This document shows positions 5,980-19,214 of a stretch of 64,000 nucleotides of DNA, piece after piece; the stretch's first letter is position 1, and every line of letters begins with the position of its first letter. The stretch is from assembly GCF_003325755.1 (NCBI RefSeq), contig NZ_QORI02000008.1, forward strand, positions 1-64,000, given 5' to 3'. Both the position numbers and the translations under genes were made by a program. The notes below the pieces were generated by a model. The model was not told the origin of the DNA, searched no databases, and saw only the letters and a list, made by a program, of their open reading frames with translations. The stretch is from Pseudomonas sp. SST3. Its GTDB lineage: Bacteria > Pseudomonadota > Gammaproteobacteria > Pseudomonadales > Pseudomonadaceae.

Positions 5980-6198
5980 TCAGGCGGGAGCAAAACTGAC
6001 GGGGTAGGCAAGGGAGGCCTGGGCCCCTTGTACATTGCTCAAGGTTTCACGAACGACCTGCTTTGCCACGCATGCGCACTTGCCGCACTGGCTGGCAACA
6101 CCGGTAGCTTCACGCACCTCACGATAGCTGCAGCAGCCTTCATAAATCGCTTCACGAATCTGACCGTCGGTAACACCCTGGCAAAGACAGACGTACAT
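5980..6198 (-). CDS. bfd: Bacterioferritin-associated ferredoxin
   Basis: A 72-residue [2Fe-2S] protein of the BFD family. The four cluster cysteines occur as CLC near residue 4-6 and CGKC near 38-41, the family pattern CxC...CxxC. Bfd docks on bacterioferritin and supplies electrons through the heme so stored Fe(III) is released as Fe(II). In pseudomonads it is induced under iron starvation, and a strong Fur-box match is found at 6239-6257, some 40-60 bases upstream of this start. The neighbouring bfr supplies the partner. The C-terminal tail after the fourth cysteine is ordinary for Pseudomonas Bfd. Confidence 0.95.
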   Translation of the reverse strand: MYVCLCQGVTDGQIREAIYEGCCSYREVREATGVASQCGKCACVAKQVVRETLSNVQGAQASLAYPVSFAPA

Positions 6199-6238
6199 AT
6201 GAACTACCCGTTGGGTCTGTGATGGTTGAGATGCTAAA

Positions 6239-6257
6239 CAGAATGATAATGATTGTC
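6239..6257 (-). promoter_or_regulatory. Fur box upstream of bfd
   Basis: The 19 bases CAGAATGATAATGATTGTC match the classical Fur consensus GATAATGATAATCATTATC at 15 positions. The location, 41-59 bases before the bfd start on the minus strand, fits repression of bfd by Fur with iron. Confidence 0.8.
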
Positions 6258-6339
6258 AAAGCTCGTTCGTCGCCTCGCTCGATTTCATTCGCGTGTCGCA
6301 GTTGGCCGCGGCGTAAGAAGGCCTGAGCGACAATGCCAC

Positions 6340-6356
6340 CTGGCCCAACCATTGCC
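6340..6356 (+). promoter_or_regulatory. Sigma-54-type -24/-12 promoter candidate before the PspA/flotillin module
   Basis: CTGGCCCAACCATTGCC carries the obligatory GG and GC doublets separated by exactly 10 bases and matches TGGC...TTGC of the sigma-54 consensus. It lies about 95 bases upstream of the first gene of the module. Sigma-54 control is the known mode for the enterobacterial psp operon, which supports the call. No enhancer-binding protein gene is adjacent, and promoter function is inferred. Confidence 0.6.
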
Positions 6357-6451
6357 GTGAAATGCAGGTTGTAAGTGGCGCGTCACATTTCCGCGAAATC
6401 TTTCATGTAATGCCGTTGTTCTTATTACATGTGCTGCTACCTTTCGGCGCT

Positions 6452-7072
6452 ATGGAAACGAAAACGTCCGCACATTATCAGCGCCTCTTCCGGCAACGCC
6501 TTCGTGATCAGGGGTTGGTGAAGAAGGAAGTTTGGATCTTGCCCGAACATTCAGCGCGGCTTGCGGCGATTGAGAAGAGAATGCGCCAGCCGCTTCAGGG
6601 GCTGGCTTCATGTGAAATGGAAGAAGGTATGGATATGCCGCAGCTATGGACCGCCCAGGCGTTGCATGACGCTATTGAAACCTCTGATCTCTGCAAAAGC
6701 GGTCAGATCGCAATCGAGCTGATCGAAGGCGCTGATGCCAGTTTGCGCGTCACGATGCGTGAGTATGGTGATTTGCCGATCTACGTCGCAGTGATTGGCG
6801 AGCAAATCATCGTCGAGGCTCTGCTTTGGCCTGTTACTGATGTGCAGGATCCGAACGCATTCAATGAGCAGATATTGCGCACCCACAAGTTGTTTCCGCT
6901 TTCGTGCATTGGCATCGAGTCGCTTCCGGATGGCCAGCCTTGCTACACCATGTTCGGTGCATTGAGTTCGGCGTCCACGCTTTCAGATGTGGTGCTGGAG
7001 ATCGAGTTGCTTGGCGATAACGTGATCAAGGCTACCGAGGCGTACGAAGGCTTTCTCAAGGCCGGCGTTTGA
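6452..7072 (+). CDS. YjfI-like DUF2170 family protein
   Basis: The 206-residue protein matches the YjfI/DUF2170 family: an N-terminal helical, basic region (SAHYQRLFRQRLRDQGL) and then the family domain from about residue 60, including the segments YGDLPIYVAVIGEQI and the closing EIELLGDNVIKATEAYE. No catalytic residues are apparent. The function is unknown, but members sit next to PspA-type proteins in many genomes, as here, where the stop is 19 bases before the PspA-like gene. The ATG at 6452 is preferred over the upstream frame from 6362, whose first 30 residues look like untranslated leader. It would be the first gene behind the sigma-54-like promoter at 6340. Confidence 0.85.
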   Translation: METKTSAHYQRLFRQRLRDQGLVKKEVWILPEHSARLAAIEKRMRQPLQGLASCEMEEGMDMPQLWTAQALHDAIETSDLCKSGQIAIELIEGADASLRVTMREYGDLPIYVAVIGEQIIVEALLWPVTDVQDPNAFNEQILRTHKLFPLSCIGIESLPDGQPCYTMFGALSSASTLSDVVLEIELLGDNVIKATEAYEGFLKAGV

Positions 7073-7091
7073 GCTCTAAAGGAGATTTGAG

Positions 7092-7787
7092 ATGAATGTA
7101 TGGAGCAAGCTGCTCACCGCCCTGCGCGGGGGCGTCAATGAGGCGGGCGAGGCGGTAGTGGATAGCCAAGCGCTGCGTATTCTTGATCAGGAAATTCGCG
7201 ATGCCGATTCCGAGTTGCGCAAAGCCAAGGAGTCGCTGGCTGAAATAATGGCCAAGCAGAAGTTGGCCGCTGAGCGCGTCAACAAGGCAGCTAAAGCAAT
7301 CAGCGAATACGAACAATATGTGTTGAAGGCACTTCAGGCCGGTGATGAGCCGTTGGCCAAGGAAGTGGCCGCAAAGATTGCCAATCTTGAGACTGAGCAG
7401 ATCGCCGAGCGCGAACAGGCCGATAATTACGCTGAGAGCGTGGCGCAACTGCGCAAGGCCGTCAGTCAGGCGGAAGCACATATCAAGCGGCTCAAGCAGC
7501 AGGTTGATACGGTCAAGGCTACGGAGAGTGTGCAGAAGGCCCAGATGGCTGTCGCCCAGCGCTACGGCGGCTCCCAGGCCAAATTGCACACCGCGGTTGA
7601 GTCGCTCGAGCGGATCAAGCAGCAACAAGCCGAGCGCGCAGCGAAGATGGAGGCAACGGCCGAGCTCGCACAGGCGTCCCACGTCGACGAATCACTTGAT
7701 GCCAAATTGCGCGCCGCGGGGATTGTTGCCGACACTGCCAGTGCAGACAGTGTGCTCGCGCGCCTGAAGAACAAGGCTAAGGGTTGA
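7092..7787 (+). CDS. PspA/IM30-family protein
   Basis: This 231-residue protein is almost wholly alpha-helical coiled coil with charged heptads (for example ELRKAKESLAEIMAKQKLAA and LKQQVDTVKATESVQKAQ), the build of PspA/Vipp1/IM30, ESCRT-III-like proteins that coat and repair the inner membrane. The N-terminal WSKLLTALRGGVNEAGEAVVD is an amphipathic start as in YjfJ. A good ribosome-binding site AAAGGAG precedes the ATG. Its neighbours (YjfI before, an NfeD/YqiJ-like protein and flotillin after) match conserved membrane-stress gene sets. No pspB, pspC or pspF is adjacent, so it is not the classical psp operon. Confidence 0.9.
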   Translation: MNVWSKLLTALRGGVNEAGEAVVDSQALRILDQEIRDADSELRKAKESLAEIMAKQKLAAERVNKAAKAISEYEQYVLKALQAGDEPLAKEVAAKIANLETEQIAEREQADNYAESVAQLRKAVSQAEAHIKRLKQQVDTVKATESVQKAQMAVAQRYGGSQAKLHTAVESLERIKQQQAERAAKMEATAELAQASHVDESLDAKLRAAGIVADTASADSVLARLKNKAKG

Positions 7788-7855
7788 CCCCGACGCCGGT
7801 GGAGCCGGTCTCGCGGAGTTGGCGGGGCAGGCGCCACAACACAAGGAAGTGATCC

Positions 7856-8500
7856 ATGGATTTGTTCATACAGACCGCTTTGAGCTTTCCGGTGGTGCTG
7901 CTCAGCTTCGTGCTGGGTATAGCCATTCTGTACTGGAGCGTGGCAGCGCTCGGCATGATCGACGTGGACGTACTCGACGTCGAGATGGAGTCTTCTCTCG
8001 AAGATACGTCGTTTCAGCCGGAAGGCCTGGCTGGCCTGTTGCTCAAATTCGGTCTGTCCGGGGTTCCAGTCACGCTGGTGCTGACCCTGCTGTTCTTCTT
8101 TTCCTGGCTGTTCTGTTATTTCTCTCAGCTGCTGGTGCTGCGCTTCCTGCCGCTCGGCATTTTGCGTTACCCACTTGGCCTGGTGCTGACTGTGGTTGCG
8201 CTGCTGCTGGCGGTGCCGATTTGCGGCGCGCTGGTCCGTCCACTTCGCCCGTTGTTTCTGAAGCTTCATGCACCCAATCATCGTTCGTTGCTCGGCCAGG
8301 TCGCTGTTGTGCGCAGCGGTACGGTCACGTCGATTTTTGGCGAGGCCACGCTGGAGGATGGCGGTGCTGGGCTGATCCTGCGTGTCAGAGCGGAGGAGAA
8401 GGCCGGGTTCAAGCGCGGTGATCGCGTGGTTTTGCTGGAGTACCTGGAGGCCGAGAATGCCTACCGGGTCATTACCGAAAGTGAATTCAAGGGCGTCTAA
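7856..8500 (+). CDS. NfeD/YqiJ-like membrane protein with OB-fold
   Basis: A 214-residue inner-membrane protein. There is a transmembrane segment near residues 5-30, two more between about 70 and 125, and a soluble C-terminal beta-rich domain (HRSLLGQVAVVRSGTVTSI to VVLLEYLEAENAYRVI) resembling the OB-fold of NfeD and YqiJ proteins. Such proteins accompany flotillins and are thought to help them form membrane microdomains. It lies 27 bases before the flotillin gene in the same direction, the standard yqiJ-yqiK order. The precise role has not been worked out for this branch. Confidence 0.85.
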   Translation: MDLFIQTALSFPVVLLSFVLGIAILYWSVAALGMIDVDVLDVEMESSLEDTSFQPEGLAGLLLKFGLSGVPVTLVLTLLFFFSWLFCYFSQLLVLRFLPLGILRYPLGLVLTVVALLLAVPICGALVRPLRPLFLKLHAPNHRSLLGQVAVVRSGTVTSIFGEATLEDGGAGLILRVRAEEKAGFKRGDRVVLLEYLEAENAYRVITESEFKGV

Positions 8501-8527
8501 GCCCGCTTTTTAAAGGGAGTTGATGTA

Positions 8528-10570
8528 ATGAGCCTCGAACTGGTGATGCCTTTCCTGATTGGGTTGGGCGTGTTCTTCCTATTGATCATGGGCTTTTTTG
8601 TCCTGTTCAAAGCCTTTTATATAAAAGTCCCACAGGGGACGGCGCTGATCGTCAACGACATGTCGTCGATGCCCAAGGTCCACTTCACTGGCGCCCTGGT
8701 CTATCCGGTGATCTACAAAAAGGAGTTCATGAAGATCTCCTTGCTGACGCTGGAAGTCGATCGTCGCGGCAAAGATGGCCTGATCTGCCAGGACAACCTG
8801 CGCGCCGATATCACCGTCGCCTTTTACCTGCGGGTAAACGAGACCCAGCAGGACGTGCTGAAGGTCGCCAAGGCGATCGGCGTAGACCGTGCCTCTGATC
8901 GTGCGGCGGTAAATGAGCTGTTCAACGCTAAGTTCTCCGAAGCACTGAAGACGGTGGGCAAGCGCTTCGATTTCGTCCAGCTGTTCGAAGAACGCCAGAG
9001 CTTTCGTGACCGTATCGTCGAGGTAATCGGCAACGATCTGAATGGCTATGTGCTCGAAGACGTCGCAATCGATTACCTGGAGCAAACGCCCAAAAGCTCC
9101 CTGGACCCGAATAACATTCTCGATGCCGAAGGTATTCGCAAGATCACTCAGCTAACGGCTGCGCAGAACATCATCACCAACGACTTCGAGCGCAACGAAG
9201 AGTTGGCTATCAAGAAGAAGAACGTCGAAACCCGTGAGGCTACTCTGGCGCTTGAGCGTCAGGAGGCTGATGCGGTGGCTAGGCAGATGCGGGAGATCGA
9301 GACCATTCGTGCGCGCGAGCATGCTGAAACGCTCAAGGTGCAGGAAGAGGAGCGGTTGAAGGCCGAGCAGGCCCGCATTCAAACCCAGCAGGAGCTGGAT
9401 ATCCGCGCCGAGAACCACCAGCGTGAAGTCGAGGTGGCGCAACAGAACCGCCAGCGTGCCGTGGTCATCGAAGTCGAGAAGGTGACGCGTGCCAAGGATC
9501 TGGAGATCGTGGCTCGCGAGCGTGAAGTCGAACTGCAGCGAATCGAAAAGGAAAAGGCGCTGGAAGAAGAGCGCAAGAATATTGCTTCAGTCATTCGTGA
9601 GCGTGTGGCGGTCGAGAAAACCGTTGCCCAGGAAGAGGAGCGCATCAAGGAAGTTCGCGAGGTTTCCGAGGCTGAGCGAATGAAGCAGGTCGTGGTGCTC
9701 AATGCCCAGGCTGAGGCAGAGCAGGAGCTGGTACGTCAGGTCAAGCAGGCCGAGGCGGACGAAACACGCTCCAAGCACAAGGCTGTGGAAATCAATACGC
9801 TGGCCCAGGCCGAGCTGGAGGCAGCCGCCAAGCAGGCTGAGGCGAAGAAGAAGCTTGCCGAAGGCGTCGAAGCCGAGCGTGCAGCACCGGGCCTGGCTGA
9901 TGCGCGCGTGCGTGAAGTCACCGCGGCAGCGAAGGAGAAGGAAGGGCTGGCCGAAGCGCGTGTGCAAGCGGAGCAACTGATCGCAGCCGCCAAGGGCGAG
10001 CAGGAGAAGGGCCTGGCAGAGGCACGGGTAATTGAGGCCAAAGCAGGCGCCAAGGAAAAGGACGGCTTGGCCGAGGCCAAGGTGCTGGAAGAAAAACTCA
10101 CTGCTCAGGCGCGTGGCGAGGAGCAGTTGGGTAGTGCCAAGGCCAAGGCGGCCCAGGATCTGGGTATGGCCGAGGCACACGTGCTCTTGGAACGTCTGAA
10201 CGCTGAGGCCGAAGGCTTGGGCAAAAAGTTCGGTGCGCTGGACTCGCTCAGCGATGGCGCCCGTCAGCACGAAGAGTTCCGCATGCAGCTGGAGAAGAGC
10301 TTCGAAGAGGCGATGGCCTCGATCGCGGCGAACAAGGACATCGCCAAGGACCAGGCAGAGGTGCTGTCGGCAGCGCTATCGAAGGCCAAAATCGAAATCG
10401 TCGGTGGCGAAGGCGACTTCTTCAATTCGTTCGCCAAGTCGCTGTCGGTGGGCAAGGCGATCGAAGGTGTGGTTGGCAAGAGTCCAGTCGTTCAGGACGT
10501 GCTGTCACGCCTGCTCAATGGCCGCGCTGCCGAAGCCAAACCGGTGCGCGCCGACGCCAGCGAAGTTTGA
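8528..10570 (+). CDS. Flotillin family protein (YqiK type)
   Basis: This 680-residue protein has an N-terminal hydrophobic anchor (residues about 5-30, VMPFLIGLGVFFLLIMGFFV), a band 7/SPFH domain to about residue 210, then a very long Ala/Glu/Lys-rich coiled coil made of irregular repeats such as KEGLAEARVQAE, KGLAEARVIEAKAG and KDGLAEAKVLEE, and a short globular C-terminus. Flotillins oligomerise on the membrane and organise lipid domains. It is longer than typical YqiK (about 550) because of an expanded repeat stretch at residues about 455-560. Its upstream neighbour is its usual NfeD-like partner; downstream comes a TerB-like protein and a giant ATPase. Confidence 0.93.
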   Translation: MSLELVMPFLIGLGVFFLLIMGFFVLFKAFYIKVPQGTALIVNDMSSMPKVHFTGALVYPVIYKKEFMKISLLTLEVDRRGKDGLICQDNLRADITVAFYLRVNETQQDVLKVAKAIGVDRASDRAAVNELFNAKFSEALKTVGKRFDFVQLFEERQSFRDRIVEVIGNDLNGYVLEDVAIDYLEQTPKSSLDPNNILDAEGIRKITQLTAAQNIITNDFERNEELAIKKKNVETREATLALERQEADAVARQMREIETIRAREHAETLKVQEEERLKAEQARIQTQQELDIRAENHQREVEVAQQNRQRAVVIEVEKVTRAKDLEIVAREREVELQRIEKEKALEEERKNIASVIRERVAVEKTVAQEEERIKEVREVSEAERMKQVVVLNAQAEAEQELVRQVKQAEADETRSKHKAVEINTLAQAELEAAAKQAEAKKKLAEGVEAERAAPGLADARVREVTAAAKEKEGLAEARVQAEQLIAAAKGEQEKGLAEARVIEAKAGAKEKDGLAEAKVLEEKLTAQARGEEQLGSAKAKAAQDLGMAEAHVLLERLNAEAEGLGKKFGALDSLSDGARQHEEFRMQLEKSFEEAMASIAANKDIAKDQAEVLSAALSKAKIEIVGGEGDFFNSFAKSLSVGKAIEGVVGKSPVVQDVLSRLLNGRAAEAKPVRADASEV

Positions 10571-10647
10571 TGACCCCAGGGCGCCTGTATCTATAAAGCA
10601 GAGCGCCCGTTCTGGCTCAACTTGAGCCGCTGCAGCGAGGAGTGTTT

Positions 10648-10887
10648 ATGTCTGAACCAAGGGATTATCTGGAAATGTCCTTCCGCTCGATTCAGTGCTT
10701 TGCCAATGATGGCCGCCTGGACGTGAGCGAGCTGGGCGCACTGCTGGACATCGCCGAACGCGACGGTGATATCGATGAGAACGAAGTGCGTGTGCTGACA
10801 AAGATCATCGAACGCATCCGGCCCGAGGAAATCGACCAACCGATGCGCGACAAGCTCGCCGAGGTAGCCAAGAAAATCGGAGCTTGA
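10648..10887 (+). CDS. Small TerB-like helical protein
   Basis: The 79-residue acidic protein is predicted all-helical and contains SIQCFANDGRLDVSELGALLDIAERDGDIDENE cut into two parts by loops rich in D, G and N, a pattern like TerB-type domains that carry acidic, metal-binding-like loops (the key part is DIAERDGDIDENEVRVL). The ATG at 10648 has GAGG seven bases upstream; a GTG at 10642 is a less likely start. It is co-directional with the flotillin gene 77 bases upstream and the ATPase downstream, with a hairpin between it and the latter. TerB-like domains recur in membrane-stress and tellurite loci, but the function here is unknown. Confidence 0.75.
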   Translation: MSEPRDYLEMSFRSIQCFANDGRLDVSELGALLDIAERDGDIDENEVRVLTKIIERIRPEEIDQPMRDKLAEVAKKIGA

Positions 10888-10934
10888 AGCATCCTCCACA
10901 GCGCAGCCATTCGGCACCTCCCGCTACTTAGTGC

Positions 10935-10957
10935 AGCCCCCGTGCAACCGGGGGCTC
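10935..10957 (+). terminator. Hairpin between the TerB-like gene and the DUF3686 ATPase gene
   Basis: AGCCCCC and GGGGGCT pair around GTGCAACC; the following CGTTGCTT is only a weak T tract. It could be a partial terminator reducing expression of the downstream ATPase relative to the flotillin part. Confidence 0.6.
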
Positions 10958-10991
10958 GTTGCTTGCAGACCGCGTAGATTCAAGGAAGACC

Positions 10992-13900
10992 ATGATGTCG
11001 GACGTCCAAGCCGAAAATACCCAGGACATTCTCGATAAAGCCGTTGCGCAAGGCGGTGCTTACGAGGTGCTGCATAAGCGACTGCAGGAGCAGGGATTAC
11101 GCCTCCGGCATATCACCGAGAGCCTGAACGAAGAGCGCCTGGACGCCTTCGGCAGCAGTCGAATGGAGGTGGTGGGACGCGTTCGCATCCGCACTGAAAA
11201 CAACTGCACGGCACGTGACATCGCTCAGGTCGGCGACACTTTGCTGTTTGGCTACAACGTCTTTCTCGGGCTCAAGAAAGAAACCCGTGTCGAGGACGTG
11301 TTTTCGCTCTACCGCTTGTGCGAGCAGGCCGAGGGCTACGAAGCCCAAGCCGTGGCGCTTGAGGGCAGCTTCCTTGCTCAGAGCAGTTTCGTAAACGACT
11401 TCAACGAGCTCTACACCTACTACAAGAACACCCGCTTGCTGCAGCTGATAGTGCGCGACAGCAAGTTGCTGGCAAGCTTCCAGATTGGCGAGCGGGTCAC
11501 GGACATTCGAGTATTCCGTTGGTCGATTTCAGATGACGGCAAGGATGTCCGATACATCGACAACCGTGGCGAGCGCGATATCGCGCTGCCGGCACCATTC
11601 GATTTCGAATGGCAGAAGACTTCTCGTGAGATGGTGGTCAATGGACGACATCCACATCTGAATATCCTCGACACTCTGTTCGTCGAGACCATCGGTGGAG
11701 ACCTGACCGTCAAGGTGGAAAACAACACCGACGATGGCTTGGGTATCTATCGTGAGGCGGTACTGGACAAGACCCAGTCCCTCGACGATGCACAGATCGA
11801 ATACGCCAGGCTTGGTAGCCTGATCCTGCTCAAGGTGCTGCCGTACAGGGAAGAACAGTGGCGATACCTGGTCTTCAACAGCCTGACGCGGACGGTTGAG
11901 CGCCTTGATGCAATCGGGCTGGCCTGCGTTCAGTTGCCAGAAGACCACGGAATAATCTTTCCCGGCGGTTACTACCTGCAGAGCGGAGAGTCCAAGGCGT
12001 TCGAGCAATCGATGGACGGCATGCGCTTCAAGCGTGCGGTGCGCTCGCCTAACGGTGAGGATGTGCAGTACATCTTCTACCATCCGGAAGAAGGGCGGTC
12101 TGCGTTATTTACCTACAACATGATCGATCGCCAACTACAGAATCCGATCTTCGGTCATGGCTATGCCCGGCTCGAAGACGGGCGCACGGTGATCTTTTCC
12201 GCCGAAGGCAGTGAGCCCACACGCATCCACCCGATGCAGATATGGCAGACGCCGTTCTGTACCGATGACTTCGCCGCACGGCAGCCTGCGCGCAGCGGAT
12301 TCTTCGGACGCATCGGCAACGCCGAGTTGGTGCGCGGCGTATCCGACCTGTTCAACCTGAGTCGCGAGATCGATGCGCCGCAGATATCGGTGCAGCGTTA
12401 TACCCAACTCTGCCAGAACACCCGCCGTCTGTTCGATGCTTACCACTGGCTGGGCGATGCCCAGTGCCAGGGGCTTGCCCTGCTGCTGCGCGAGATTGCA
12501 GCGACCGGCGAGCTGGTGCTCGATGAATTCGAGAAGGTCGAGAGCATTCGTCAGCAATCGACCCGCGCGATGGCCGAAGCTCAGACTCAACAGAAGGCAC
12601 TGCTCTCCGGGCTGCTGACCGACAGCTGGGACAGGGTGCAGCAGTTCGTCGAAGCGTTAAACGCAATCAACTCACATCGTGGCCAGCTGCTGACCATTCG
12701 TGACTACCGCTATATCGATGTCTCGCGCATCGATGCCATGGAGGCCGAACTGCTCGAGGCGCAGGAACGGGCCAGTTTGGCGACTTCGAGGTTCCTCGCC
12801 AGCAGTGCGGCGCTCGAGCCTTACCTGCTGGAACTCAGTGACCTCGATGCGGCGGCGCAGAAGGCGGAAACCGTCACCCAGCTCAATGAGCCCTTGGCCG
12901 GCATGCAGGAGATGGCTGCAGGGCTGGACATGCTTTCGGGCCTGATGGCGTCGTTGTCGATCGATGATGCCACCGAGCGCACCCGCATCGTTGAATCGAT
13001 CTCGGAAGTGTACGCACGTCTCAACCAGGCCAAGGCGCGAGCGGAGCAGCGTCGCAAGGGGCTCGGTTCGGCGGAAACAGTCGCCCAGTTCGGTGCTCAG
13101 TTCAAATTGTTCAGCCAGGGCATCACCAACGCTTTGGCCCAGGCATCGGACCCGGAGCGCTGCGACGAGCAGCTCTCACGTCTGCTGGTGCAGCTCGAGG
13201 AGCTTGAAAGCCAGTTCGGTGATCACGAACAGTTCCTCGGCGACATCCTGAGCAAGCGTGAGGAGTTGCTGGAGACCTTCGAGGCGCACAAGCAGAGCCT
13301 GCTTGATGACCGCCAGCGCCGCGCCCAGGGCGTTCTCGATGCTGCGTCGCGCATTCTCGACAGCCTCGGTCGCCGTACTGCCCGGCTGAACCAGACCGAG
13401 GAGCTCAACGCCTTCTTTGCCGCCGACCCGCTAATCCTCAAACTGCGTGAGATGGTGGGTCGCCTGCGCGACCTCAAGGACAGCGTTAAGGCAGACGATG
13501 TGGAGGCGCGCCTGAAGAGCGCCCGCGACCAGGCGGTGCGGGCGATGCGCGACAAGAGTGAGCTGTTCGAGGCCGGTGGCAATGTCATCCGGCTGGGCCC
13601 GCGCCACCGCTTTAGCGTGAACACGCAGGAGTTGGATCTGACCCTGCTGCCCCGTGGTGATCAGCTGTATCTGCACCTGACCGGGACCGATTTTCTCGAG
13701 CCGCTGCGTGATCCCGAGCTCGAAGCGTTACGCGAATTCTGGCAGGTGTCGCTGGAGTCGGAATCGGAGGCGTTGTACCGCGCCGAGTACCTGGCCGGCG
13801 AAGTGCTCGCCGCCGCAGACGCCGGACAAGATGGCCTGGATATCAATAGCCTAAAGCAGCTACTCGCCGACCGTGAGGCGCTGACCAGGCGCATTCGAGA

Positions 13901-16238
13901 TTTTGCCGCCCCTCGTTACCGGGAAGGTTACGAAAAGGGTATCCACGATCACGACGCGGCGCTGATCCTGACGCGCCTGCTACCGCTTCGCGACAGCGCC
14001 GGGCTGCTTAGCCATACACCGATGGCGCGAGGCACTGGCTGTTTTTTCTGGAACAGCGTTGTGGGTGAGGCCATTGCGTTGGAGTGGCCGGAGCGCGCCC
14101 GCACCAGTCGGCATATTCAGCAGCTTTTTGGTCGCCGTGATGGGATCGACCAACTTGAGGCGGAAATCGCCTTGGCGATTGAGCGGTTCGCGGCCGATGA
14201 AGCGATGACGCTGCGGTCCGGGCTGCCTCTAGACGCGGCGCGCTATCTGGTCCAGGAGCTCGCTGGCGAACGCATCGAATTCGTCTTTAGCAAATACGCG
14301 CGCCAGCTGCTTGGCTCGCTGCAGGCAAAGCTGGAAGCCGCACGTGTCTGGGATGGCTATGTGCAGACATTGGAGCGACTGCAGGCGCGCCCAGCGGCAC
14401 GGTGGGCGCTGGTGGACAATTGGTTGCAAGGACTCTGCAATCAGGGCGAGCTGTCCGACCTTGCTCGCTACATCCCCGAAGCAGTGGCGCTGGCTCTTTT
14501 GCCGGAGGGGCAGAGCAGGCGTGTCACTGAAGTGGATCTGCGCTTTGCTGTTGAAGAGCTGATGGGTGACCACCCACGCATTGACGGCCAGCGATTGATG
14601 CTGTCGCTGGATGACTATTTCGAGCGGCTCGAGAACCATCGCCGACGCTTCCTTCCACAACTTCGGCGTTACCAGGCCTTGCGTCAGGGCGTGATCGGTC
14701 GCGAGCGCGACGCGCTGCGCCTTAGCGAGTTCAAGCCGCGGCCGCTGAGTTCTTTCGTGCGCAACAAGCTGATCAACGACGTTTATCTGGGGTTCATTGG
14801 CGACAACCTGGCCAAGCAGATGGGCACTGCGGGAGAGAACAAACGCACCGATTTGATGGGGCTTTTGATGCTCATCTCTCCGCCTGGTTACGGCAAGACA
14901 ACCCTGATGGAATATGTCGCCCATCGATTGGGGCTGATCTTCATGAAGATCAACGGCCCCGCTTTGGGTCACGAGGTTCGTTCGGTGGACCCTGCGCAAG
15001 CGCCCGATGCCACTTCGCGCCAGGAGCTGGAGAAGCTCAATCTGGCTCTGGAGATGGGAAACAACGTGATGCTGTATGTCGATGACATCCAGCACACCCA
15101 TCCAGAATTCCTGCAGAAATTCATCTCGCTTTGCGACGGTACGCGGCGTATCGAAGGCGTCTGGAAGGGCAAGACCAAAACCTATGATATGCGCGGCAAG
15201 AAGTTCTGCGTGATCATGTCCGGCAACCCGTACACCGAATCCGGTGACGTCTTCAAAATCCCTGACATGCTTGCCAACCGTGCGGACATCTACAACCTCG
15301 GCGATACGCTCGGAGGCATGCAGGAAGCATTCAGCCTCAGCTATATCGAGAATGCGTTAACCTCCAATCCGATCCTTGCGCCGCTGGCTACCCGCGACAT
15401 GGCCGATGTCTACCGGCTGGTTGACAAGGCCCAGGGCAAGCCGTTCTCCGCCAATGAGCTGTCGTACAGCTACAGCGCCGCCGAGATCAACGAGATCACC
15501 GCTACGCTCGAACGCTTGATGCAGGTGCGCGATGTCGTAGGCAGAGTCAACCAGCAGTACATCGTCAGCGCCGCGCAGGCCGACCAGTACCGTAGCGAGC
15601 CGCTGTTCAAGTTGCAGGGCAGTTACCGCAACATGAACAAGATGGCCGAGAAGATCAGTTCGGTGATGAACCAGGCAGAGCTGTTGCAGCTGATCGCTGA
15701 CCATTACCAGGGTGAATCGCAGTTGCTTACCACCGGCGCCGAGGAAAACCTGCTCAAGCTTGCTGAGCTGCGCGGCAATATGACGGACGTTCAGGCCGAG
15801 CGCTGGGCGCAGATCAAACGTGACTTCATGCGCAACAAGGCCATGGGCGGCAGTGACACCGATGTTGGGGGCCGCGTAGTCGCGCAGCTCAACGATCTGG
15901 TCGAAAGTGTGCGCGGGCTGAGCATCGGCAAGTCTGACCGTGATCAGGCGCGGATTCCCTGGGAGCAACTGATTAGCGGGCTGGATAATCTTGGCCGGCT
16001 AAGACCGCAGGTAGAAGTCGTCGCACCGCCTCAGCCAGCCGTACAGAAGCTGCTGGAGAATCTGGCCGACAGCCTGCAGAACAGTTTTCTGCCGCTGATC
16101 AAAACCATGGATAAGAAGATCGATATCGACTTGCGTACCCACAATCGGATGCTGGAGATATCCGCCCAACTGCGTGAGCTTGGCGAACATCTCGGCCAGG
16201 AACAGCGCAATGTCGAACCCCACGATGGAGTGCCGTGA
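10992..16238 (+). CDS. Giant DUF3686 AAA-family ATPase ('DNA repair ATPase')
   Basis: About 1748 residues. The N-terminal half matches the DUF3686 region of proteins named DNA repair ATPase, a name not backed by known function. Long coiled coil follows (roughly residues 520-900), and an AAA-type ATPase domain lies near residues 1260-1500: Walker A PPGYGKTTLMEY at about 1298, Walker B VMLYVDDIQHTHPE at about 1360, and a sensor region IMSGNPYTESGDVFKIP. The C-terminal tail is again helical. ATG codons at 10992 and 10995 follow AAGGAAG; either may be used. It overlaps the rhomboid gene start by 4 bases. The position between flotillin/TerB genes and membrane-protease genes suggests membrane-associated remodelling rather than DNA repair, but that is inference. 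Confidence 0.88.
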   Translation: MMSDVQAENTQDILDKAVAQGGAYEVLHKRLQEQGLRLRHITESLNEERLDAFGSSRMEVVGRVRIRTENNCTARDIAQVGDTLLFGYNVFLGLKKETRVEDVFSLYRLCEQAEGYEAQAVALEGSFLAQSSFVNDFNELYTYYKNTRLLQLIVRDSKLLASFQIGERVTDIRVFRWSISDDGKDVRYIDNRGERDIALPAPFDFEWQKTSREMVVNGRHPHLNILDTLFVETIGGDLTVKVENNTDDGLGIYREAVLDKTQSLDDAQIEYARLGSLILLKVLPYREEQWRYLVFNSLTRTVERLDAIGLACVQLPEDHGIIFPGGYYLQSGESKAFEQSMDGMRFKRAVRSPNGEDVQYIFYHPEEGRSALFTYNMIDRQLQNPIFGHGYARLEDGRTVIFSAEGSEPTRIHPMQIWQTPFCTDDFAARQPARSGFFGRIGNAELVRGVSDLFNLSREIDAPQISVQRYTQLCQNTRRLFDAYHWLGDAQCQGLALLLREIAATGELVLDEFEKVESIRQQSTRAMAEAQTQQKALLSGLLTDSWDRVQQFVEALNAINSHRGQLLTIRDYRYIDVSRIDAMEAELLEAQERASLATSRFLASSAALEPYLLELSDLDAAAQKAETVTQLNEPLAGMQEMAAGLDMLSGLMASLSIDDATERTRIVESISEVYARLNQAKARAEQRRKGLGSAETVAQFGAQFKLFSQGITNALAQASDPERCDEQLSRLLVQLEELESQFGDHEQFLGDILSKREELLETFEAHKQSLLDDRQRRAQGVLDAASRILDSLGRRTARLNQTEELNAFFAADPLILKLREMVGRLRDLKDSVKADDVEARLKSARDQAVRAMRDKSELFEAGGNVIRLGPRHRFSVNTQELDLTLLPRGDQLYLHLTGTDFLEPLRDPELEALREFWQVSLESESEALYRAEYLAGEVLAAADAGQDGLDINSLKQLLADREALTRRIRDFAAPRYREGYEKGIHDHDAALILTRLLPLRDSAGLLSHTPMARGTGCFFWNSVVGEAIALEWPERARTSRHIQQLFGRRDGIDQLEAEIALAIERFAADEAMTLRSGLPLDAARYLVQELAGERIEFVFSKYARQLLGSLQAKLEAARVWDGYVQTLERLQARPAARWALVDNWLQGLCNQGELSDLARYIPEAVALALLPEGQSRRVTEVDLRFAVEELMGDHPRIDGQRLMLSLDDYFERLENHRRRFLPQLRRYQALRQGVIGRERDALRLSEFKPRPLSSFVRNKLINDVYLGFIGDNLAKQMGTAGENKRTDLMGLLMLISPPGYGKTTLMEYVAHRLGLIFMKINGPALGHEVRSVDPAQAPDATSRQELEKLNLALEMGNNVMLYVDDIQHTHPEFLQKFISLCDGTRRIEGVWKGKTKTYDMRGKKFCVIMSGNPYTESGDVFKIPDMLANRADIYNLGDTLGGMQEAFSLSYIENALTSNPILAPLATRDMADVYRLVDKAQGKPFSANELSYSYSAAEINEITATLERLMQVRDVVGRVNQQYIVSAAQADQYRSEPLFKLQGSYRNMNKMAEKISSVMNQAELLQLIADHYQGESQLLTTGAEENLLKLAELRGNMTDVQAERWAQIKRDFMRNKAMGGSDTDVGGRVVAQLNDLVESVRGLSIGKSDRDQARIPWEQLISGLDNLGRLRPQVEVVAPPQPAVQKLLENLADSLQNSFLPLIKTMDKKIDIDLRTHNRMLEISAQLRELGEHLGQEQRNVEPHDGVP

Positions 16239-16780
16239 AGCGAGCGCTCGGAGAGCTGCGCTTGCTGGCTGTGTTGGCCGGCAGCCTGGTGCTTGTGCAA
16301 CTCGCTAACAGCTTTACCGGCGGTGCGCTGAATGTATGGGGGGTGGTGCCGCGTCAGGTGCAGGCCCTGCCTGGCATTCTGATCGCGCCCTGGCTGCACG
16401 GCGGCTGGGCGCACCTGTTGGGCAACCTAAGCGGCCTCATGATCCTCGGATCACTGGTTTTGCTCCGCTCGCGGCGCGATTTCGTCCTGGCAAGTCTCTT
16501 CATCATCGTCGGCAGCGGTGGGCTGGTGTGGTGCTTTGGGCGTATCGGCGTGCACATCGGTGCAAGCGGCTGGTTGTTCGGATTTTGGGGGTTATTGCTG
16601 GCCCGTGCCTGGCTCGATCGCAGTCTGCTTGACCTGGCGCTCGCTGGGCTTGTCTTCATGTTTTATGGCGGCTGGCTGTTCGGGCTATTGCCGCGTGACG
16701 GCGTTTCCTTCGAGTACCATCTGGCCGGTGCGTCGTGCGGCGTGCTTTACGCTGTGCTGTCGCGTAACCGGCGCCTCTGA
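16235..16780 (+). CDS. Rhomboid-family intramembrane serine protease
   Basis: A 181-residue protein with about six membrane spans. The rhomboid active site is present: serine in GASG at residue 111 and histidine 162 in EYHLAGASCG, plus the oxyanion-side HGGWAHLLGN with His60 and Asn64. It would cut membrane proteins inside the inner membrane. The GTG start overlaps the ATPase stop (GTGA), so translation is coupled to the ATPase gene, and the PLD-family gene follows after 15 bases. It is not GlpG: there is no N-terminal cytosolic domain and no glp neighbour. The substrate may well be a product of this module. Confidence 0.88.
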   Translation: MKRALGELRLLAVLAGSLVLVQLANSFTGGALNVWGVVPRQVQALPGILIAPWLHGGWAHLLGNLSGLMILGSLVLLRSRRDFVLASLFIIVGSGGLVWCFGRIGVHIGASGWLFGFWGLLLARAWLDRSLLDLALAGLVFMFYGGWLFGLLPRDGVSFEYHLAGASCGVLYAVLSRNRRL

Positions 16781-16795
16781 CAAAAAGGACTTTGT

Positions 16796-17488
16796 GTGGA
16801 TTTCAATCGACTTGACCAACAATTGCGCGACAGCTTGGCCGATTTGCGCCTGAGTAACGAAGAGCGCGACGAGTTGCGTCAGCTGGGCAGCGAGCTGACA
16901 GTTGACCAGATACGCTTCCTGCGCAATCGGGCTTTTGCTTTGGTGCGCGAGCTTAGCCGTGAGCCGGCGAACGTTGAGCCTGCGCTTAAATGGCTGGAGC
17001 AGGTGATCAAGACGCTCGACTCCTGCTCCACGCCAGTCAGGGCAGAGCAGGCCAGCGCACATTTCAGTCCGGGCGAAAGCTGCCGTCGCAAGATTCGCGA
17101 TCTGTGTCGGCAGGCGCGCAAGAGCGTGGATATCTGTGTTTACACCATCTCCGATGATCAACTCAGTGAGGAGATTCTGGCCTGCCACCTACGTGGCGTA
17201 ACTGTGCGGGTGATCAGCGACAACGAGAAACAGTATGACGCGGGCAGCGACATTCAGTGGCTGCGCGATAAGGGCGTGCCGTTGCGTATCGACTCTGGCC
17301 CATACCACATGCATCACAAGTTCGCGCTATTTGACGGGCGCCTGCTACTCAACGGCAGTTTCAACTGGACCCGTAGCGCGACCACCAGCAATGAAGAAAA
17401 TCTGCTGGTGATCGATCACCCACAATTGCTGGCCGATTACACGCGCGAATTCGAGAGCCTCTGGGCGCGTTATGCGGAGAATTGTTGA
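16796..17488 (+). CDS. Phospholipase D-like protein with one HKD motif
   Basis: The 230-residue protein begins (GTG start) with a helical region of about 90 residues and then has one PLD domain. The catalytic motif is H-H-K-FALF-D-GRLLLN-GSFN near residues 170-190, followed by the conserved acidic NEEN. Single-HKD proteins act as dimers and include the Nuc nuclease and mitoPLD branch, so it may cut nucleic acid or a phospholipid. There is no signal peptide, so it acts in the cytoplasm. It ends the plus-strand run that starts at 6452, 15 bases after the rhomboid gene. Substrate unknown. Confidence 0.88.
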   Translation: MDFNRLDQQLRDSLADLRLSNEERDELRQLGSELTVDQIRFLRNRAFALVRELSREPANVEPALKWLEQVIKTLDSCSTPVRAEQASAHFSPGESCRRKIRDLCRQARKSVDICVYTISDDQLSEEILACHLRGVTVRVISDNEKQYDAGSDIQWLRDKGVPLRIDSGPYHMHHKFALFDGRLLLNGSFNWTRSATTSNEENLLVIDHPQLLADYTREFESLWARYAENC

Positions 17489-17504
17489 TCGTTGGTCAGC
17501 TTCT

Positions 17505-19214
17505 TCAAGCCGCGTTGGGCTGCCGCCAGAAATCGTCGCTGAACACCTTGTCGAGTAAGCGATGCTTGAGCGTGCGGCTTTCATCAGTAGCGGCGGCGTC
17601 GAGTTTCTTCAGCAGGCGCTGAGGCCCATTGCGGGAGTCGAAGAGGTCTCGATAGCAAAGGCCATCGACCGCGTGGGCGAGTAGGTCCTGCTCAAGTAAT
17701 GCGTCGACCCAGTCCGACGGATAGCTGATATCTCCGGGTATTTGTCGGATTAGACCCTCCGCTTCATCGACATCTCCCAGACGCAAGTATGCGATGGCTA
17801 GGTCATCGAGCAGCAAGGCCATGTCGAACGCTTCGATTTCCTCTGGGGCGTTGGCGGTGACCAGCCTGTCCCGCACATTGTCGAGCAGGCTTCGCGCATC
17901 TGCCGGCCGATCCAGGCGCTGTAGCAGAAGGGCGTGGCGTGTGTCAGTGAATGCACGGTCGAAGAGAGGCTGACGTTCTGCCAAGCGCTGAATCCGTTCC
18001 AGAGCCCGGCGAATTTCGTAACTGGTGCGTTGGCGCTCCGGTAGGCGGCTTTGTAGTGTCAGGCGCGCGTTCAGAACCTGCAGCCGTAGGTGATCGCGAT
18101 CGGTGTCCTCTGGTAGGTACTCGATCCAGCGCTCGGCCTGGCCAAGCATCGAGGTGGCTAGGTCTGGCTGGCTTTGTTCATAAAGAGACCATAGCGACAA
18201 GTACAGGCTGATGCGCTGTGTTTCGTGCCTGGACAAGCGCCGTACATCTCGCTCGGCTTCAGACGCGGCGCCCTGGTCGATCCACCATTGGGCCAGCCTC
18301 AGTAGTAGCGCGTCATGCACGCCATCTTCGACCTCCTCCAGCAACGCCTCGGCCTCGCGAAGCTGGCGATGTCGCAGCATGGCGTCGAGCAATTGATCGT
18401 AATGTTCGTCGCGCCAGTTCGCATCCAGTCGCTGGATCTGCTGCTGGGCTTGAGCGAGCCAGCCGGCTTCTATCATGGGGGCGATGAAGGGATTGTCGCG
18501 TTCCAGCGAAAGCGAATCGGAGACTTCCAGAAGCTGTTGGAGATCGCCAAGGGAAGCCAACTCCCGAGCAAAAATTTCCAGCCCGACAATGTCTTCAGCC
18601 GGAACGGTCTGCTGCAGTGCCCAGAACTGCGCGAGGCTATGCCGTGCGGCATCCTCTTTGCCGCTCTGGCGTTGCAGACGCGCAACGTTCAGCCACTGCT
18701 GTGCGCTCAGGTTGGATGTGGTGGCGAACGTTTCGAGCTCGCTATTGGCTGTGTCCTGATCGCCCTCGGCAAGCAATAGTGGGATGCGTAGCAGCGGATC
18801 GCTAGGGCGCTCATCGCCAGTGCGCTTTAGCAGCTCCAGTGCCTTTTCGGCTTCACCGGCGTCGATCAGCTGGTAAAGCATCGTGGCTAGCGCTTCGCGG
18901 CGATGGTGCGCGTCGAGGTATGAATATAGCCCCAGCGCTTCTTCCTCACGGTTCAGCTCGAGCAGGGTCGCGCACAGCGATGCATTCGCCACCTGCCAGA
19001 CATCGCCCTGTAGCCGTGCAGCCAAATCAATGGCCATTTCGGGGGCCAAAATGCGTAGGGTTGAGATGCGATTGATCCACACCACCTCCTCAAGCGTGAG
19101 GCTGGCTGAGCTATCAGCAACGGGAATCCGATGTGGCTTCGGATCAGCGCCAGTGATGGCGATAATCAAGAAAACCCCGATGAGTACCACCAGTACGACG
19201 ACAAATGCTTCCAT
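17505..19214 (-). CDS. Membrane-anchored TPR-repeat protein
   Basis: A 569-residue protein with a single N-terminal membrane anchor (MEAFVVVLVVLIGVFLIIAI) and then an all-helical body of degenerate tetratricopeptide repeats with many Leu/Ala/Glu pairs. No enzyme motif is seen. It is convergent with the PLD-family gene, stops 16 bases apart, so it may or may not belong functionally to that module. The ATG at 19214 is chosen because it begins exactly at the anchor; a longer in-frame reading from 19406 adds 64 residues without membrane or family character. Its role is unknown; such proteins often assemble envelope complexes. Confidence 0.8.
   Translation of the reverse strand: MEAFVVVLVVLIGVFLIIAITGADPKPHRIPVADSSASLTLEEVVWINRISTLRILAPEMAIDLAARLQGDVWQVANASLCATLLELNREEEALGLYSYLDAHHRREALATMLYQLIDAGEAEKALELLKRTGDERPSDPLLRIPLLLAEGDQDTANSELETFATTSNLSAQQWLNVARLQRQSGKEDAARHSLAQFWALQQTVPAEDIVGLEIFARELASLGDLQQLLEVSDSLSLERDNPFIAPMIEAGWLAQAQQQIQRLDANWRDEHYDQLLDAMLRHRQLREAEALLEEVEDGVHDALLLRLAQWWIDQGAASEAERDVRRLSRHETQRISLYLSLWSLYEQSQPDLATSMLGQAERWIEYLPEDTDRDHLRLQVLNARLTLQSRLPERQRTSYEIRRALERIQRLAERQPLFDRAFTDTRHALLLQRLDRPADARSLLDNVRDRLVTANAPEEIEAFDMALLLDDLAIAYLRLGDVDEAEGLIRQIPGDISYPSDWVDALLEQDLLAHAVDGLCYRDLFDSRNGPQRLLKKLDAAATDESRTLKHRLLDKVFSDDFWRQPNAA

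Follow-up and report, generated by a model that had tools for sequence, protein, structure and literature searches.

In the 64,000-nucleotide (nt) stretch of Pseudomonas sp. SST3 DNA analysed here (contig NZ_QORI02000008.1, positions 1 to 64,000; "the window"), eight consecutive plus-strand open reading frames (ORFs) spanning positions 6452 to 17488 form a gene cluster which we identify by sequence as the Stutzerimonas version of the Pseudomonas bac operon, a PspA-type membrane-maintenance operon, since the product of its first gene, BacA, passes the NCBI equivalog model NF050185; bacA is followed by a PspA-family gene, as in the bac operon. According to the available text of three reports (PMC2587700, PMC10948618, PMC11237479), the module itself has already been described in print, and the new part is its regulation. 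We propose, with a probability of about 0.7, that BacA is a local autorepressor which combines an N-terminal DNA-binding head with a CesT-like chaperone domain and controls a leaderless PspA operon.

The upstream region of bacA was compared among loci encoding relatives of the large DUF3686 ATPase of the cluster, namely the best 80 of at least 579 confirmed loci; because these were selected for likeness to the window ATPase, they are not an even sample and Pseudomonas is over-represented. In an alignment of 32 upstream sequences from Pseudomonas and close kin, window included, strong conservation upstream centres on two TTACATGTGAT-like boxes, 22–24 nt apart. At least two exact ACATGT boxes lie within 130 nt of the start in 50 of 57 bacA loci, and a relaxed rule finds the pair in 51 of 57, the count leaving out locus L028 with its broken BacA N-terminus; the window, with one exact and one variant box, is counted under the relaxed rule only. 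Two or more exact ACATGT boxes are present in none of 1083 upstream regions of other predicted ORFs from the same loci, and none of 20 loci that start with the YqiJ-like gene has even one such box, although in two of the YqiJ-first loci (L061 and L077, at contig ends) the lack of bacA is not established. When 19 genomes were scanned with two box patterns, 15 matched, each at a single promoter, and every match that was fetched lies right before bacA-pspA. The genomes of L001, L029, L064 and L072 gave no match, which reflects a limit of the patterns, because the boxes of these loci deviate in sequence or spacing.

The same region carries a sigma-70-type promoter placed unusually close to the gene. 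Under a permissive rule, 47 of 57 bacA loci have such a promoter ending 5–8 nt upstream of the start codon, compared with 3 of 1119 control ORFs, while a Shine-Dalgarno-like sequence is found in 1 of 57 versus 274 of 1119, the control rates being approximate because control ORFs were taken from the first possible start codon. Given that the promoter in the window ends 8 nt before the ATG, the bacA mRNA is probably leaderless. A consensus promoter scan of positions 6000–17700 returned two sites (3.0 expected), neither of them at the bacA promoter; the hexamers there are too weak to satisfy the rule applied.

Importance for the present proposal attaches to the N-terminus of BacA, which lies outside the published structure. 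The chain in the crystal structure 8q8o comprises 146 residues, of which residue 4 aligns with residue 64 of the window BacA; given this start and the length of the P. aeruginosa BacA P0123 (206 residues, 99% identical to the crystal chain), the crystallised chain corresponds to residues 61–206. PA3732 is likewise given as 16 kDa, i.e., the short form, in the available text of PMC2587700. If the autorepressor reading is true, the published BacA structure is without the regulatory half of the protein. Across 55 sequences, the mean top-residue frequency is 0.82 for residues 9–47 versus 0.75 for residues 64–206, and 36 sequences yield a head consensus beginning KSSAHYQRLFRQRLREQGLVKKEVWILPE, with S6, R14, R16, R18, G21, K24, W28, L37, E41 and R45 invariant. 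AlphaFold places helices at residues 6–19 and 31–45 with a low-confidence stretch between them; the CesT/Tir-like fold of the remainder, that of 8q8o and of type III secretion chaperones, is confirmed, the BacA model matching 8q8o with a template modelling (TM) score of 0.96 by target length.

The head shows a distant similarity to PF11455, the MazE-like antitoxin family. Sub-threshold matches occur in 15 of 36 members (best E 0.0098), and among seven distant head-bearing proteins scanned, one (L158) exceeds the gathering cut-off (22.9 versus 22 bits). The head profile aligns to 11 MazE-like sequences with P 2.7e-5, and in a separate profile run its score of 23.0 was higher than that of all 99 column-shuffled controls (top 14.3). 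Searched against the PDB, a profile of the MazE-like set itself returned designed repeat proteins at E 0.007–0.016 together with weaker chance matches. MazE-like antitoxins bind DNA and autoregulate. The head, roughly 47 residues in length, can be described as a distantly MazE-like, putative DNA-binding domain. In Pseudomonas sp. MF4836 (L028), the gene encodes only a broken, shorter version of the BacA head, and ACGCGT takes the place of ACATGT in the promoter boxes; the BacA protein P0126 from an unclassified Pseudomonas apparently has the same short form.

Head and boxes occur together also beyond the loci in which they were found. In a separate draw of 398 Pseudomonadota genomes, 50 carried DUF2170, and all 51 genes were examined. 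The head was called by a fixed rule (E < 1e-3) in six of the 51, and the box pair precedes four of the six genes with a head versus none of the 45 without (Fisher p 6e-5). L152 and L153 come from the family-search genomes, L153 sharing its genome with the discovery-set locus L001; when both are removed, the pair is found in two of four versus none of 45, with both remaining pairs spaced 13 nt apart. Post hoc, upon reading of the N-termini, L155, L157, L158 and L187 were moved to the head group; in this grouping, a repeated 6-nt palindrome precedes 7 of 10 versus 2 of 41 genes (p 3.3e-5). Leaving out L152 and L153 changes the counts to 5 of 8 and 2 of 41 (p 5.5e-4). Among the seven, the CCGCGG of L158 is not a CATG box and probably a chance repeat.

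Moreover, the box sequence changes along with the head (L131–L133, L160, L187). Three Pseudomonas-family genomes (L131–L133) contain a second bacA-pspA pair, about 50% identical to the window BacA; the paralogue carries a head of its own, is preceded by an inverted CTTACATGAAAG/CTTTCATGTAAG and starts about 1.3 kb from one locus end. Heads with altered strands go with other palindromes, with CTCACGCGTGAG in L160 (ACGCGT boxes) and TTCGCGAA in L187; in L160, both the head strand and the box centre are unlike the bac type, which may represent a natural change of specificity. Another head type, R-x-W-R ... VK-x-E-x-W (L154–L158), has CATG-like repeats before the start in most cases. Lysobacter loci L049, L069, L071 and L073 carry TTTCATGTAAG boxes, three of them together with a YVR-type head, and the inverted TTTCATGTAAG pattern was found once each in two of six genomes searched (those of L071 and L069). 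In Escherichia coli, the 133-residue YjfI lacks the head, and the 250 nt upstream of the yjfI start contain no CATG-core site. As an observation on this relative, a 1-nt deletion 80 bp upstream of yjfI (L151:6134) in heat-evolved E. coli is linked, in the available text of PMC12492005, to strong up-regulation of yjfIJKL.

In the mechanism that we propose, the head would bind the paired CATG-core boxes around the bacA promoter, while PspA (BacB) or some other client is probably what the CesT/Tir-like domain senses. As long as membrane damage is slight, BacA would occupy the boxes overlapping the -35 to -10 region and keep the leaderless sigma-70-type promoter low. Engagement or release of the client at the membrane would cause BacA to come off its boxes, leading to joint production of PspA, the NfeD-like protein, flotillin, the ATPase, the rhomboid and the PLD protein. 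Flotillin might then offer a platform on which PspA coats and remodels the membrane; the AAA+ ATPase would remodel this assembly, and the rhomboid and PLD proteins would serve as optional processing enzymes. Two statements in the available text of PMC10948618 agree with an autorepressor: in a P. aeruginosa bacA transposon mutant, BacB-D and two downstream products are up 6.1- to 13.5-fold, and the authors remark on an unpublished strong interaction between BacA and BacB.

Several points count against this proposal. Because a transposon disrupts bacA in the P. aeruginosa mutant, transcription running outward from the insertion could also be what raises the downstream products, and such insertion-driven read-through is the main alternative explanation for their rise. 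Regarding the head, the AlphaFold stretch 24–28 has a predicted local distance difference test (pLDDT) value below 50, and the monomer model shows a helix, a low-confidence segment predicted as a strand, and a helix, without the second C-terminal helix of the classical ribbon-helix-helix. The hhalign probability was 74.5% in one run and 20.4% with other settings. Searched against Pfam up to E 10, the window BacA gave no DNA-binding family, PF11455 included; the N-terminal profile had three chance-level matches in the PDB (E 0.23–0.5), none of them a bacterial repressor; and no ribbon-helix-helix or antitoxin protein is named among the first 50 of 1660 Foldseek matches.

On the side of the DNA, six of the 57 loci (L047, L049, L069, L071, L073, L080) are without the pair even under the relaxed rule, and the spacing varies: Pseudomonas and its close kin have 22–24 nt between the boxes, L154 and L159 only 13 nt, and L064 and L072 as much as 29 nt. 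A control pattern read backwards matched once in the 19 genomes (G157), and the locus counts are not independent, as most loci are from related Pseudomonas. Within the separate draw, the fixed rule calls a head in L156 and L160, neither of which has a CATG pair, and the four genes moved post hoc, in which that rule had called no head, likewise have no pair as defined there. Since L069 combines the TTTCATGTAAG box with another head type and L047 has the YVR head without the box, the correlation between the two in that group is not clean.

Among the rival explanations, one that we consider unlikely holds that the boxes bind a different, unlinked transcription factor, with the BacA head being a protein-interaction or RNA-binding domain. 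The weakness of the MazE-like similarity speaks for it, and binding of BacA to the boxes is itself a prediction; however, the boxes mark one promoter in each matching genome (15 of 15 matching, 19 scanned), whereas an unlinked shared regulator would usually have more sites, and they accompany the head rather than the operon type, being missing where the head is missing. Less probable again is a sigma-54 (RpoN) promoter driven by an unlinked enhancer-binding protein, like in canonical psp, which would leave BacA as a chaperone only. A sigma-54 site has been predicted before the P. aeruginosa bac operon by sequence inspection (PMC2587700 and PMC10948618, in the text available), the original prediction had likewise started the window operon at a -24/-12 element, and the core of that element at 6341 reaches p 0.02 when compared with mononucleotide shuffles of the 360-nt region in which it lies. 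Yet this core, TGGC-N7-TTGC, occurs six times in the 64-kb window versus 4.66 expected, is missing from the region where the two nearest relatives, L001 and L002, align, and forms no conserved column block in the 32-sequence alignment; when the sequence before bacA or yqiJ was scored in the other 77 loci (L003, L076 and L078, with no usable upstream, were left out), p < 0.05 was reached only in L036 and L079. Given its chance frequency, absence from L001 and L002 and lack of conservation, the candidate was rejected, and the conserved block lies instead at 6401–6443. The P. aeruginosa site, known to us via the papers alone, was placed upstream of a start that, as annotated, falls about 60 codons into the gene; the comparison itself covered 18 genus-member genomes, of which four match with a best identity of 77%, and the P. 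aeruginosa bac promoter lies outside it.

The original prediction had further seen in the locus an envelope- or phage-defence machine, with the ATPase as motor and the rhomboid and PLD proteins as effectors. We regard this as very improbable, no positive evidence for it having been obtained. The PLD protein does match PADLOC DrmC models (best E 4.2e-11), and its partners are membrane-stress families; however, against the NCBIfam DrmC model it scores 33.3 bits, well short of the cut-off of 133 bits, and it is matched by other PLD-type models too. No known anti-phage system gene set was matched in PADLOC, which gave only generic PLD-superfamily and coiled-coil cross-matches. The neighbouring genes look to be of housekeeping type, judged by eye from the ORF list, the rhomboid is missing from 39 of 78 loci and the PLD gene from 31 of 78, and the phenotypes reported for bac in the available text of PMC2587700 and PMC10948618 are biofilm, swarming and virulence, with osmotic shock inducing the PspA-like protein.

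Beyond the single locus, the autorepressor proposal can be widened to the view that proteins of the BacA type form a new stress-regulator class, whose members would sense PspA directly and repress their own PspA operon at a leaderless sigma-70 promoter via paired palindromic boxes that co-evolve; for this wider view, the arguments on both sides appear evenly balanced. If it is true, phage-shock wiring independent of PspF and sigma-54 would exist across several proteobacterial lineages, and the class would have been overlooked because the gene start of the published protein was set about 60 codons too late. If BacA acts as a sensor of chaperone type that carries a DNA-binding head, the switching of a whole class of PspA operons without PspF would be testable with one protein and a short piece of DNA, the rise of Bac proteins upon bacA loss in P. 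aeruginosa would be explained, and the sigma-54 assignment corrected. In a literature search at the level of titles and abstracts, nothing was found on a DNA-binding head of BacA or its boxes, and the words "DNA-binding" and "ribbon" are not present in the available text of PMC10948618; for DUF3686, the literature search returned no papers.

Coordinates of the genes, domains and upstream elements of the bac locus, in window positions
Feature	Positions	Strand	Basis or remark
Earlier -24/-12 candidate TGGCCCAACCATTGC	6341..6355	+	Judged a chance match
Upstream candidate operator box TTTCATGTAAT, variant	6401..6411	+	Aligns with the CATGT box in the other 31 sequences
Sigma-70-type promoter, TTGTTC (6416-6421), 16 nt, TACCTT (6438-6443)	6416..6443	+	Ends 8 nt before ATG
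Downstream candidate operator box TTACATGTGC, between -35 and -10	6425..6434	+	Alignment and box counts
bacA (DUF2170/YjfI family), 206 residues	6452..7072	+	NF050185, 332.8 bits versus cut-off 300; PF09938
BacA N-terminal domain, residues 1-47, proposed DNA-binding head	6452..6592	+	Absent from crystal 8q8o
BacA CesT/Tir-like DUF2170 domain, residues 66-202	6647..7057	+	Pfam; model fits 8q8o
bacB, PspA/IM30 family (YjfJ-like), 231 residues	7092..7787	+	PF04012, 178.6 bits; 36% identity to E. coli YjfJ
bacC, putative membrane protein, 214 residues	7856..8500	+	YqiJ/NfeD-like by position and published context only
bacD, flotillin-like SPFH protein, 680 residues	8528..10570	+	Band_7, 26.3 bits versus cut-off 23.6 (first 251 residues)
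79-residue protein, TerB/EF-hand-like below cut-offs	10648..10887	+	Sub-threshold Pfam matches
DUF3686-DUF7902-AAA+ ATPase, 1748 residues; AAA region at residues ~1290-1420	10992..16238	+	Pfam
Rhomboid protease, 181 residues, 4-nt overlap with the ATPase stop	16235..16780	+	PF01694, 64.7 bits
Single-HKD PLD-superfamily protein, 230 residues	16796..17488	+	PF13091, 104.6 bits

The layout of eight short-spaced or overlapping genes was predicted correctly, all ORFs being present with gaps of 19, 68, 27, 77, 104, -4 and 15 nt. The family names held for the most part: above the curated Pfam cut-off are DUF2170, PspA_IM30, DUF3686 (with DUF7902 and AAA models), Rhomboid and PLDc_2, while the flotillin assignment stands for the SPFH part, as Band_7 exceeds its cut-off only when the first 251 residues are scanned alone and Pfam scans of the full-length protein give no Band_7 or flotillin match; the protein is 28% identical to E. 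coli YqiK (E 2e-39). The names NfeD/YqiJ-like and TerB-like, by contrast, had no match above cut-off. Profile scans of the bacC product gave no family match at a meaningful score, and BLASTP found no similarity to E. coli YqiJ (E 7.1), with 26% identity in a forced global alignment; the 79-residue protein matches PF05099 at E 0.027 and EF-hand_7 at E 5e-4, both below cut-off. Both names rest on position, published context and weak similarity and are, thus, kept only in the form "-like".

For the ATPase, whose closest relatives among the 80 loci are those of Stutzerimonas stutzeri L001 (98%) and L002 (97% identity), the ground on which the window is assigned to Stutzerimonas, the P-loop region GYGKTT and the YVDDIQ region are conserved across the alignment, and the AAA+ assignment is confirmed by Pfam. 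Its structure model is poor (pLDDT 62), the best fold matches being NorQ, RuvB, CbbQ and Lon with TM scores by query length of at most 0.19 among the top 50 matches; the model is too poor to assign an AAA+ subtype by fold, the Vps4-type ATPase of ESCRT included. The rhomboid motifs GxSG, a later His and HxxxxHLxxN are kept in all 37 rhomboid ORFs examined, and the HKD-GSxN motif in 44 of 45 PLD ORFs.

Gene order was counted in loci with at least 6.5 kb upstream (n = 75) or at least 4.5 kb downstream (n = 78) of the ATPase gene; L103–L110 are repeats of loci already counted. The YqiJ-like and flotillin genes adjoin the ATPase gene in 75 of 75 loci, and bacA and pspA always go together, 57 of these loci having the pair and 18 neither gene. 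A TerB-like homologue is nearby in 27 of 75 loci, in 23 of them between flotillin and ATPase. Downstream, the rhomboid gene is found in 39 and the PLD gene in 47 of 78 loci; the rhomboid is a recurrent partner of the operon that goes unnamed in the main text of PMC11237479. It occurs in nine loci without BacA, e.g., in Providencia, Pragia, Limnobaculum and Xenorhabdus, and together with BacA in Hahella, Exilibacterium and an uncultured member of the Saccharospirillaceae. The random placement of DUF3686 that the original prediction had named as its own refutation is, therefore, not seen relative to flotillin genes, whereas PspA accompanies DUF3686 in 57 of 75 loci only. That the genes act as one system is supported by this conserved synteny and by the single transcript of the six-gene bac operon found in P. 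aeruginosa by reverse transcription polymerase chain reaction (PMC10948618, in the text available), with PspA being optional. In even draws, DUF3686 is patchy, with 1 of 114 class genomes (the centre genome itself) and 22 of 119 family genomes, centre included.

The Providencia loci L045, L046, L048, L051 and L052, composed of YqiJ-like, flotillin, ATPase and rhomboid genes with no adjoining BacA-PspA, display the module in a minimal form; matches to the PspA family are present elsewhere in the L045 genome. In the available text of PMC8190622, a table on P. aeruginosa adaptation to the cystic fibrosis lung lists PA3728, named ATPase and possibly the counterpart of the window ATPase, with the number 3 and three references, an entry taken as three studies with mutations.

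Compared with known systems, the locus shares with canonical pspF-pspABC the PspA/IM30 domain; it differs in that the window PspA fails TIGR02977 (16.5 versus 242.95 bits), no PspB or PspC match is found among the eight window proteins at E 0.01, and no conserved sigma-54 site is present at the bac locus, pspF not having been sought genome-wide. The E. coli yjfIJKLMC operon is alike in the pair of DUF2170 and PspA-like genes at its front (37% and 36% identity), whereas YjfI is without the head, no boxes lie upstream and the downstream genes are others. Likeness also exists to the operons of CesT/Tir and PspA genes described by Ravi et al. (2024; PMC11237479), in which, according to the text available, band-7/flotillin, YqiJ-like and AAA+ proteins with a propeller and a coiled coil, sometimes with PLD, occur, i.e., the same families as in the window. 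In the main text of that report, a text search found neither rhomboid nor MazE, the section on these operons describes no operator, and ribbon-helix-helix proteins are mentioned, in the part available, only as separate transcription factors of other operons.

The closest known relative is the bac operon of P. aeruginosa (bacA-F), with which the window locus shares the BacA equivalog, the PspA-like gene in second place and further bac genes thereafter. It differs in the reading of BacA as a protein of 206 residues with a head, in the inclusion of the rhomboid and PLD genes, and in the predicted paired CATG boxes on a sigma-70-type leaderless promoter in place of a sigma-54 promoter. The assignment to the bac kind is kept despite this last difference, because the sigma-54 site is a prediction in the papers rather than a proven trait of the operon.

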